Shown here in pieces: positions 10,728-21,417 of a DNA stretch of 32,121 nt. Where the stretch lies: positions 1 to 32,121 of the forward strand of contig JAJRVY010000160.1 of the NCBI GenBank assembly GCA_024277065.1. The letters are read 5' to 3'. Positions within the stretch are counted from its first letter, which is position 1; every line of letters starts with the position of its first letter. The notes beneath the pieces were generated by a model, which saw only the letters and a program-made list of their open reading frames with translations, had not been told where the DNA came from and made no database searches. The translations under genes and the position numbers were made by a program. Origin of the DNA: Planctomycetota bacterium (GTDB lineage Bacteria; Planctomycetota; JAJSAM01; JAJVHW01).

Positions 10728-11567
10728 TCAGTTCTGCGAGGCCACCGCGACGACCAGTGCGACGACGACCGCGTACGCGCCGACGGACAGGACGCAGCAG
10801 AGCACCATCCACGAGAGCACGGACATCCACGCCATGCCCCACGTGCTCTTGTGAACCTCCTTGACCATCACGACCGACGTCCAGATCGTCCAGAAGAACG
10901 CAACGACGCTTCCGAGGAAGGGGATCACGGCGAGGATGTTGGGCGCCTGCGCGTAGCAGTAGCCGCGCAGCGTCTGGTGGTACGGCGCGCCGACCTTCCC
11001 GGTCATCATCAGGAAGAGGTGCATGAGCCCGGCGACCATGAATGCACCGAGGATCGCGGCGACGGGCGACAGGAAGACCCCGATGCACGCCCCGAACGTC
11101 CCGCTGAACATCTGCGGCAGGACCATCTGCGATGCGTCGTCTCCCATTCCGCCTCCCATCTGGGAGAGGAACGCCATCATGCCGCCCATGATCGTGAGTT
11201 GCAGGATGCCGCTCACGATGGCGCCCAGAACCGCGAGAACGCACGGCACCGCGAGGCAGTCCCAGGTCGTGACCGACGTGTCCATGCGGCGGAAGAACCT
11301 GGCCGGGTCCGTCATCACCGCCTTGATCGTCTGCCAGAACGCGGACGCCATGCCCAGCTCCGCGCGGCGCTCCCACGCGGGCAACTCTAGGTCGCCGGAC
11401 GACGCCGTCGTGCCGCCCGACTCCAGCAGCCCCACTGCTTCGGCCTTGCACCCCGCGCAGTGGGTCCGGCCCTGGAACTCGACACGGCAGTCGTCGCAGA
11501 AACTGAACCCGCAACGATGACAGTGATCGAGACCGCTCTCGATCTGTGGGTGATTCCTGCAGGGCAT
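10728..11567 (-). CDS. Yip1-family membrane protein with N-terminal B-box-like zinc finger
   Basis: CRNHPQIESGLDHCHRCGFSFCDDCRVEFQGRTHCAGCKAE; FWQTIKAVMTDPARFFRRMD (Yip1 start) and multiple TM segments. Confidence 0.82.
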   Translation of the reverse strand: MPCRNHPQIESGLDHCHRCGFSFCDDCRVEFQGRTHCAGCKAEAVGLLESGGTTASSGDLELPAWERRAELGMASAFWQTIKAVMTDPARFFRRMDTSVTTWDCLAVPCVLAVLGAIVSGILQLTIMGGMMAFLSQMGGGMGDDASQMVLPQMFSGTFGACIGVFLSPVAAILGAFMVAGLMHLFLMMTGKVGAPYHQTLRGYCYAQAPNILAVIPFLGSVVAFFWTIWTSVVMVKEVHKSTWGMAWMSVLSWMVLCCVLSVGAYAVVVALVVAVASQN

Positions 11568-11601
11568 GGTCCGACGCTCCCTTCCGACTCGCAGAGGCTA
11601 A

Positions 11602-11766
11602 GGGCCCGCGCAGGAATAGCTTCGGGATTCGGTCGGCTACGACGACGCGGGGCGGCGTTGCCTCTCCTCCCCGACTCGGCTCCGCAATGAGTCGCGTCGT
11701 CGAGGCGCCTTGCCCCGCGCCGTCTCGCTCGCCCTCGGTCCTACGAACTCATTCCTGCACGGGCCC
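11602..11766. mobile_element. Putative non-autonomous element (MITE-like), 165 bp
   Basis: TIRs GGGCCCGCGCAGGAATAGCTTCG (11602-11624) and CGAACTCATTCCTGCACGGGCCC (11744-11766), 19/23 matches; flanked by direct TAA (11599-11601, 11767-11769); internal 10-bp IR CGACGACGCG (11640-11649)/CGCGTCGTCG (11693-11702). Confidence 0.7.
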
Positions 11767-12560
11767 TAATCGGCGCGAGGCGCGAGAGGTGCGGATGGAG
11801 TTCCGAAACGTTCGCGGGCCAGCACCGAGACGATGTCGCGGAGCAGCGTCTCGTCCGGCAGGGCGCGGTGCGCGTGCAGCCCGAGCGCATCCCGATAGTG
11901 GGCCGCCAGACGCCGCGCGATCGAGAGTCGCCGCGCCGTGTCGATGTGCGGCGCGGAGGCCACGAACTCGGTGAGCAGCGCGGCCTCGCGAGCCGGAAGA
12001 CGCGAGCGGATGCGCGCCGCCGCCCGGCGGTCGTCCTGCAGGCTGTTGTGCGCCGCGGCCAGCAGGCGCAGGGCACGCGGGGGCTTGTGGCGTACTTCGC
12101 GAATTACGCGCGTGCCGGCCAGCCAGTCGCCGGCGCGTCGTCCCTCCGGATCGAGGGTGATGAGGACTGCGCCGAGCAGCGAGCCGATCGGGAGCGCATC
12201 GAGCGGGCGCGCGGCATTGCGCACGAACGCCTGCCAGGCGAGGGGCGGCGTGGCGTTGGCCTGCACCGTGCGCAGCGACATCACGCGCTTGCCCCACGTC
12301 CGGCCGCGCCAGCGCGCCTCGGCCCACCAGCGGTAACCGAGGTCGAGCACGAAGCGAGCGATGATGACGAAGGCGAGCGCCGGGAGGAGACCGATGCCGA
12401 GCGTCACGGCGCCGAAGAGCAATGCGAGCAGACAGAGCAGCACCGTCGCGACGAGCAGCAGCATCTCGTCGAGCAGCCACGCGAGCCCGCGCTCCGCCGT
12501 GCCGGCCAGCCGGAACTCCAGCGGGACGAGTTCGGGAGTGGTCACCGCGAGGCGCCTCAC
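11766..12560 (-). CDS. RDD family membrane protein
   Basis: LVPLEFRLAGTAERGLAWLLDEMLLL...RWRGRTWGKRVMSLRTVQANATPPLAWQAFVRNAARPLDALP...GRRAGDWLAGTRVI; GTGA overlap with the upstream gene; stop TAG. Confidence 0.9.
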   Translation of the reverse strand: MRRLAVTTPELVPLEFRLAGTAERGLAWLLDEMLLLVATVLLCLLALLFGAVTLGIGLLPALAFVIIARFVLDLGYRWWAEARWRGRTWGKRVMSLRTVQANATPPLAWQAFVRNAARPLDALPIGSLLGAVLITLDPEGRRAGDWLAGTRVIREVRHKPPRALRLLAAAHNSLQDDRRAAARIRSRLPAREAALLTEFVASAPHIDTARRLSIARRLAAHYRDALGLHAHRALPDETLLRDIVSVLARERFGTPSAPLAPRAD

Positions 12561-13564
12561 GCGCGCCTCCCGCGCCGCCGCAAGAGGTCCGGCGACCACG
12601 CGAACAGGTAGAACGTGTACAGGCTCCCGAGAACCGCGGCGAACGCGATCTTGGCCTCGTACGCGATGAGCGGCTCGTGCATCTGGCTGAACGTGCCCTC
12701 GATGATCCCGGCGAGCACGAGCGTCGCGGTGGCGCCGAGGAGGAGCAGCAGCGCGTCCTTGCCCGCCGCTTCCAGTGCTCTCGCACGGCCACCGAGACCG
12801 GGCGCGAAGAGCGCACGCGCGAGGATCAGCCCGGCCGCCGCGCCGAGCAGCATGGCCGGAATCTCGAGGACGCCGTGCGGCCCCACCCACGCGAGGAGGA
12901 ACTGCCCCTGCCCGGCTCCCACGTAGTCCGCGCCGACGGCGCCCAGGTACGCGCCGTTGGCGAAGATCATCAGCACCGTGCCGATGCCGCCGGTCACCGC
13001 CAGCGCGAACGCGATGTACGTGACACTGCTGTTGTGGGTCATGAGCCGTGCCGCGAACGTCGTCCCCCCGAGAGCGGTGAGCCCCACCGGCACCCTGCTC
13101 CGTTCCTCCTCGGCCACGCGGTCGCGCGGATCGACGTAGCGATGCCCGAACGGCAGCAGCACCTCGCCCGCGCCGGGGTCGCTCGCCATCGAGACGGCGC
13201 CGTACGTCAGGCCCGCGAGGAAGACGAGCGCCGCGAGCAGAACCGCACGCACGCGGCGGCGCACGACCTCGGGGAAGTCCCGCGCGAAGAAGCGCTTGAC
13301 GGCCGGCCAGATGCGCGGCGGCGTGCCGCGGTACAAGAGTCCGTGGCCGCGCCCGACGAGCGCGCGCAGGTATTCGGTGGTCGCCGAGTCGGGATCGCGT
13401 CGGACCTCTTCGAGCAGGTCCGACGAGGCTGCGCGATAGAGCGCCGCGAGCTCGCGCGCGGACTCCGAGCGCAGCCTCTTCGCGCCCCCGAACTCGAGGC
13501 GGTCGAGGAGGCGCGTGAGCCGCCCCCAGCGCTCTTGCCGTGGATCCTCTCCGGCGGCCTTCAC
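12557..13564 (-). CDS. Stage II sporulation protein M-like (DUF95) membrane protein
   Basis: LLYRGTPPRIWPAVKRFFARDFPEVVRRRVRAVLLAALVFLAG...THNSSVTYIAFALAVTGGIGTVLMIFANGAYLGAV...GPHGVLEIPAMLLGAAAGLILARAL. Confidence 0.9.
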   Translation of the reverse strand: MKAAGEDPRQERWGRLTRLLDRLEFGGAKRLRSESARELAALYRAASSDLLEEVRRDPDSATTEYLRALVGRGHGLLYRGTPPRIWPAVKRFFARDFPEVVRRRVRAVLLAALVFLAGLTYGAVSMASDPGAGEVLLPFGHRYVDPRDRVAEEERSRVPVGLTALGGTTFAARLMTHNSSVTYIAFALAVTGGIGTVLMIFANGAYLGAVGADYVGAGQGQFLLAWVGPHGVLEIPAMLLGAAAGLILARALFAPGLGGRARALEAAGKDALLLLLGATATLVLAGIIEGTFSQMHEPLIAYEAKIAFAAVLGSLYTFYLFAWSPDLLRRRGRRA

Positions 13565-21331: not shown

Positions 21332-21417
21332 GGTACCGGGAACAGGAGTCGAACCTGCACGAGCCATTGGCTCACCAGCCCCTCAAGCTGGCGCGTCTGC
21401 CATTCCGCCATCCCGGC
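21331..21417 (-). tRNA. tRNA-Leu (anticodon GAG)
   Basis: Minus strand GCCGGGATGGCGGAATGGCAGACGCGCCAGCTTGAGGGGCTGGTGAGCCAATGGCTCGTGCAGGTTCGACTCCTGTTCCCGGTACCA: class II long variable arm, loop TT-GAG-GG, T-loop GGTTCGACTCC, encoded CCA. Confidence 0.96.

Follow-up and report, generated by a model that had tools for sequence, protein, structure and literature searches.

Bacterial MITEs are usually viewed as decayed, lineage-bound scraps of insertion sequences (IS), in which selection acts on the ends only. The closest described systems include the Correia/NEMIS elements of Neisseria and the enterobacterial ERIC sequences, which are short non-coding repeats whose transcripts fold into long stem-loops (PMC2229807). 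REPs tagged with GTAG often supply the TAG stop codon of flanking genes (PMC3733652), and the ISAzo13 family of IS is reported to make 3-bp duplications (PMC10045372). In the window, i.e. the whole stretch of 32,121 nucleotides of planctomycetal DNA that was analysed, an element resembling each of these systems in part separates two co-directional genes. Its features are as follows.

10728-11567, minus strand: Yip1-domain gene downstream of the insertion (domain match PF04893).
11599-11601, no strand: left copy of the duplicated target TAA (sequence; duplicated 3-bp targets also at other copies).
11602-11766, no strand, with minus as the better-folding strand: MITE-like element of 165 bp forming an end-to-end hairpin (at least 40 genome copies, fold z-scores, full-length match to the covariance model R1).
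11602-11624, plus strand: left terminal inverted repeat (19/23 against the right end; common to the ISAzo13-family element L031).
11627-11641, plus strand: outer left arm of the core (TTCGG-CGGCT-CG), near-invariant among genomes.
11650-11671, plus strand, limits approximate: inner left arm of the core (GGCGGCGTTGCCTCTCCTCC), near-invariant among genomes.
11695-11714, plus strand, limits approximate: inner right arm of the core (CGTCGTCGAGGCGCCTTGCC), near-invariant among genomes.
11724-11739, plus strand: outer right arm of the core (CTCGCTCGCCCTCGGT), near-invariant among genomes.
11744-11766, minus strand: right terminal inverted repeat (19/23 against the left end).
11766-11768, minus strand: RDD stop codon TAG, whose G is the terminal base of the element (sequence).
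11766-12566, minus strand: RDD-family gene, start codon provisional (domain match PF06271).
11767-11769, no strand: right copy of the duplicated target TAA (sequence).

The initial annotation described this locus accurately: the 23-bp inverted repeats with their 19 of 23 identities, the direct TAA repeats and the RDD and Yip1 identities of the flanking genes all hold. The RDD stop is indeed preserved as a minus-strand TAG with its G taken from the element, and the same stop is restored when the flanks are joined without the element and one TAA (...GATTAGCCTCTGCGAGTCGGAAGGGAGCGTCGG). The motif TGCAGGAAT, which had been seen to recur in the first Yip1 codons, does so at 11553. This recurrence is a matter of chance, as had been suspected: the motif spells the Cys-Arg-Asn codons of the Yip1 N-terminus, and a congener encodes the same residues by other codons. 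The only Rfam match within the window is a tRNA gene at 21334-21417 on the minus strand.

A search of the 4.44-Mb assembly with the 165 bp recovered at least 40 copies at 91-100% identity, and a 19-bp pattern built on the ends occurs 122 times in the genome against 8 times for the reversed control. Chance is thus excluded as a source of the repeat. In other copies the inverted ends are near-perfect. Matched flanking triplets of five different sequences (TAA, TTA, TTG, TAT and TTT) were found at 10 of the 32 full copies with long flanks, which identifies them as a duplicated target and not a fixed tag, in agreement with the 3-bp duplication postulated from the window alone. The triplets at the remaining 22 copies are unmatched, e.g. 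TAA/TGA or TAA/CAA; candidate causes are mutations acquired after insertion, recombination among the copies, or joins made during assembly. One mismatch recurs in element orientation, with TAA on the left and TGA or CAA on the right (L007, L013, L017, L019, L022, L030 and others in this genome). Plasmid records searched with the window element gave no match. The empty site that had been expected in relatives exists: the orthologous, syntenic RDD-Yip1 spacer of a congener (G001; contigs match JAJRPF01, Dive100_bin1.14) lacks the element, although its RDD stop and spacer sequence differ from those in the window. Being short, non-coding, present in many copies, bounded by terminal inverted repeats, flanked by a duplicated target and missing from a relative, the insert behaves like a MITE. 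It does not stand out within its family, and the interest lies with the family rather than with this insert.

The same genome contains an IS whose ends are nearly those of the element and which is flanked by a TTA/TTA duplication; this supports the earlier proposal of a non-autonomous IS derivative. This 1071-bp element (G000:C337:23153-24223, or L031 1154-2224) codes for a transposase of the ISAzo13 family (PF07592, E=3.7e-65). The proposal had also called for an autonomous IS with matching inverted repeats, and here the match of the ends stands, but the IS is defective: its protein matches PF07592 in pieces, with profile positions 82-158 absent and the C-terminal part forming a separate match, and no intact transposase with the ends of the element was found in the 92%-complete assembly. 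Likeness between IS and MITE is confined to about 22 nearly identical bp at the ends, and the core of the MITE does not occur in the IS. Thus, the element has the ends (in this genome only) and the 3-bp duplication of an ISAzo13-derived MITE, but no interior derived from L031, which is itself a defective IS. Intact members of the ISAzo13 family elsewhere in the phylum also have TTA duplications (L141, L144). Taken together, the shared ends, the TTA duplications and the 3-bp habit of the family make mobilisation in trans by an ISAzo13-type enzyme the best inference. The most likely mover of the 165-bp element in this genome would be an ISAzo13-family DDE transposase that recognises the GGGCCCGCGCAGGAATAA ends and cuts at TAA/TTA, giving rise to a 3-bp duplication. 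ISAzo13 as the partner of all related elements described below is unsupported, with PF07592 genes in 12 of 58 carrier genomes and in 60 of 395 genomes overall, i.e. no clear association.

Blast with the window element revealed relatives that have the same interior and other ends. A covariance model built from 11 such elements on the plus strand (R1) matches the window element over its full length and finds members in 58 of 395 sampled Planctomycetota genomes (E<=1e-4), most of them full length among the matches listed. Full-length relatives measure about 155-175 bp. In a pattern scan of named genomes, the matches listed stem mainly from Planctomycetota MAGs, and others lie in MAGs labelled Candidatus Schekmanbacteria, Latescibacterota (two) and Gemmatimonadetes, with 28, 19, 19 and 4 matches, respectively, and ends unlike those in the window; phylum assignments and binning are those given with the MAGs. 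One weaker match comes from a Fibrobacterota MAG. The hits of the pattern in Actinomadura and in a deltaproteobacterial MAG were unmatched by R1 and are attributed to chance. The 165-bp element belongs to a superfamily of end-to-end hairpins of about 155-175 bp in Planctomycetota and other phyla. A search of open-access papers yielded no description of such a family.

Across this superfamily the outer ~20 bp and the duplicated target vary with the genome, and a core of ~110 nt is conserved and structurally constrained. Besides GGGCCCGCGCAGGAATAA with TAA/TTA, the combinations of ends and targets comprise GGGGCTGTGAGGAAATAA with TAA, GAGCCTGAGCAAGAATCCC with TCA, TGTCCTGGATCAGAAATT and CAGCCTGTTGAAAAAGTC with CTAG, and GAAGCTGTTTTRAAACC with TCA/TGA. 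The near-constant part of the core consists of two segments per arm, which read on the minus strand CCGAGGCCGAGCGAG ... GGCAAGGCGCGCCGA ... GAGGAGGCGCAACGCAG ... CGCAGCCGGCCGAA; the stem between these segments and the apical hairpin change together among genomes. In the CTAG types, including that of the 6.9-Mb genome G157 (two contigs), mainly the inner part of the core is recognisable. G157 has 80 + 74 ends, most of which pair over a distance of 157-159 bp. Of the single-sided ends traced in this genome, all belong to short elements of about 107-159 bp except the unpaired L265. No autonomous partner was seen in the contigs examined from eleven end-sequence groups or in G398.

Several variants and neighbouring repeats were also observed. 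A type B subfamily in the same genome as the window element has GGACCTGTCCGGAAACAAC ends, a TCA duplication and the same core (L034 8-181, minus strand, G000:C184). Versions of 255 bp (L032 850-1104, L033 1016-1270, L043 1507-1761) contain ~90 bp of extra sequence in the middle of the element, which is itself hairpin-forming. Type C repeats (L004 1883-1942, L035 109-168, L060 45-104) are about 80% identical to the apical part of the core and lie in different surroundings. Another dispersed repeat consists of CTCGAGCCYGTTAGTTGCG, often in tandem, followed by GCCGTCCC (L015, L024, L030, L031, L037, L057, L062), and its TTA has been the target of both the MITE (L057) and the ISAzo13-family element (L031). 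Several copies of the short repeat GAAGGTGTTGACAAGAGGAA (L005, L022, L026, and similarly L007) directly adjoin a MITE copy.

The window element folds end to end with z-scores against shuffles of -6.0 for the plus and -8.9 for the minus strand. In an alignment of such elements (A1), 94.7% of the cells pair, compared with 36-42% when the partners are slid by 1-3 columns. A further alignment (A3) comprised the minus strands of 25 elements, one per genome or subfamily and without G157 and other CTAG types, aligned by sequence only. Here compensatory changes affect 49 of 56 pairs, and 90.7% of the cells pair against 30-47% in the slid control, which accounts for relatedness, with the structure itself derived from the same sequences. 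Covariation scores 0.637, whereas shuffles, which ignore relatedness, reach 0.195. Any inverted repeat should covary in its outermost pairs. In A3, however, covariation extends to 12 of 13 pairs in the inner stem and 6 of 7 in the apical stem, neither of which belongs to the terminal repeats. Compensatory changes thus exceed the controls, as in a structured RNA. The initial annotation had regarded a conserved structured RNA with compensatory changes as evidence against a mobile element; the covarying structure is there, but in an element that is multi-copy and mobile. No Rfam family matched above its gathering score, and weak hits in G157 are to generic long-hairpin models below their cut-offs.

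The two strands are not equivalent. With RNA parameters, the minus strand is the more stable one in 29 of 30 elements (by 10.5 kcal/mol on average); with DNA parameters, this applies to 28 of 30. When the arms are folded back on each other, mismatches on the plus strand are pyrimidine-pyrimidine in a ratio of 318 to 23, and on the minus strand the same positions are purine-purine and form G-A-rich internal loops. On this strand G-U pairs outnumber A-C pairs by 43 to 15 (p=3e-4; pairs chosen by Watson-Crick pairing only) and, counted by genome, by 18 to 4 (p=0.001). Many members were found by means of R1, a plus-strand model, so that any resulting bias would favour plus-strand wobbles. Strand-biased mutation could be a partial source of the asymmetry. 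The asymmetric wobble pairs and stabilities point to constraint on one strand as a single-stranded molecule, either RNA or single-stranded DNA, both of which would leave the same signal of covariation and asymmetry.

As an explanation of the whole we favour, with a probability of roughly three in four, a non-autonomous MITE-like element that is mobilised in trans by an ISAzo13-type transposase and belongs to a superfamily with a constrained single-stranded core. That the core was kept with matching stem changes despite the differing ends suggests that folding as such serves the element in some way. The folded core would probably help it to persist or spread, as RNA or as single-stranded DNA used in mobilisation. 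A more far-reaching version can be offered only tentatively: the elements may be an undescribed class of mobile elements, defined by a single-stranded structure of ~110 nt with borrowed, lineage-specific ends and targets, whose fold is needed for spread or upkeep.

Less likely still is a plain MITE, that is, an internally deleted IS with a functionless core. Its long hairpin and covariation would stem from common descent and from quasi-palindrome correction, a form of templated repair that brings an imperfect hairpin closer to full pairing. A long hairpin is nothing unusual in a bacterial MITE (PMC2229807; PMC10969869), and one-sided changes exceed paired changes by 112 to 22 within this genome, as in decaying copies. 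However, the same core recurs in several phyla in elements that differ in ends and targets, and L031 shares the ends only. Furthermore, conserved mismatched loops lie beside the covarying stems, and correction should have erased these loops; it should also be roughly strand-neutral, in conflict with the excess of G-U over A-C on the minus strand.

The very stable hairpin between co-directional genes would also be in line with an RNA native to the RDD-Yip1 operon that regulates it in cis or attenuates it, but the congener has no such element in the corresponding spacer and the genome has it at 40 or more places, which makes this origin very improbable. A local effect of the element on the RDD-Yip1 mRNA is a separate matter and may exist. 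Among copies at stop codons, the better-folding strand is not enriched in the mRNA of the upstream gene (in G157, 4 copies against 8 the other way), which does not favour a simple role in the 3'-UTR.

The position at a stop codon, which the initial annotation had considered special, turned out to be an ordinary outcome of a TAA/TTA target in a GC-rich genome. Of the 32 copies in this genome, 9 lie exactly on the stop of a gene, as do 12 of the 23 copies sampled in G157, where the target is CTAG; these counts are approximate, with genes called by open frame and third-position GC. Such figures, and the targets TAA/TTA, TCA/TGA or CTAG in several genomes, could be taken to indicate active targeting of stop codons or terminator regions by the transposition machinery. 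Yet uninserted sites overlap stops to a similar extent once gene-interior sites are set aside (TAA/TTA, 20 of 86 in total and about 20 of 64 without these; CTAG, 11 of 38 and 11 of 19). Active targeting is rejected as highly unlikely, because the rates are those of tolerated target sites. The simple account is that a stop-like target is rare inside GC-rich genes and that damaging insertions are removed. Since the element starts with G, an insertion at TAA/TTA that overlaps a TAA or TAG stop regenerates the stop and leaves the protein unchanged. This should hold generally: insertion into TAA keeps TAA, and TTA with the G of the element gives TAG.

Least probable of all is a REPIN-like element moved through single-stranded hairpins by a RAYT/Y1 tyrosine transposase, for although high copy number, an end-to-end hairpin and compensatory changes are known from REPINs (PMC3116915) and no longer element with the same ends, as an autonomous partner would be, was found in G157 among the 100 of 154 ends that were listed, the target is duplicated as 3 bp of differing sequence without a fixed tetranucleotide tag, Y1_Tnp genes are no commoner in carriers (36/58) than overall (250/395), and no such gene occurs at E<=0.001 in G157 or G031, both of which carry the element in high copy number.

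If the favoured reading is true, the superfamily is an example in which a function of the folded nucleic acid of a MITE can be tested, and the covariance model could be used to find the element in uncultured phyla. Compared with the known systems, the ISAzo13-family ISs resemble the window element in the 22 bp of the ends nearly identical to L031 and in the 3-bp TAA/TTA duplication; they differ in that they lack the core, that other MITE subfamilies have other ends and targets, and that carriers are not associated with PF07592. Correia/NEMIS and ERIC share terminal repeats, target duplication, non-coding shortness and the long stem-loop fold (PMC2229807), but were described for particular genera or families, whereas the core described here recurs in several phyla, combined with different ends and with covariation specific to one strand. 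The likeness to the GTAG-tagged REPs lies in the provision of a TAG stop; those are 20-40 bp long with a fixed tag, as opposed to about 160 bp with a duplicated target. REPINs are likewise high-copy hairpins with compensatory hairpin changes and no transposase gene inside the element (PMC3116915), from which the present elements are set apart by their 3-bp target duplications and the missing association with Y1 transposases. Moreover, REPINs have invariant ends and a variable middle. Here the ends change and the middle is constant: the interior is conserved and constrained, on one strand and across phyla.
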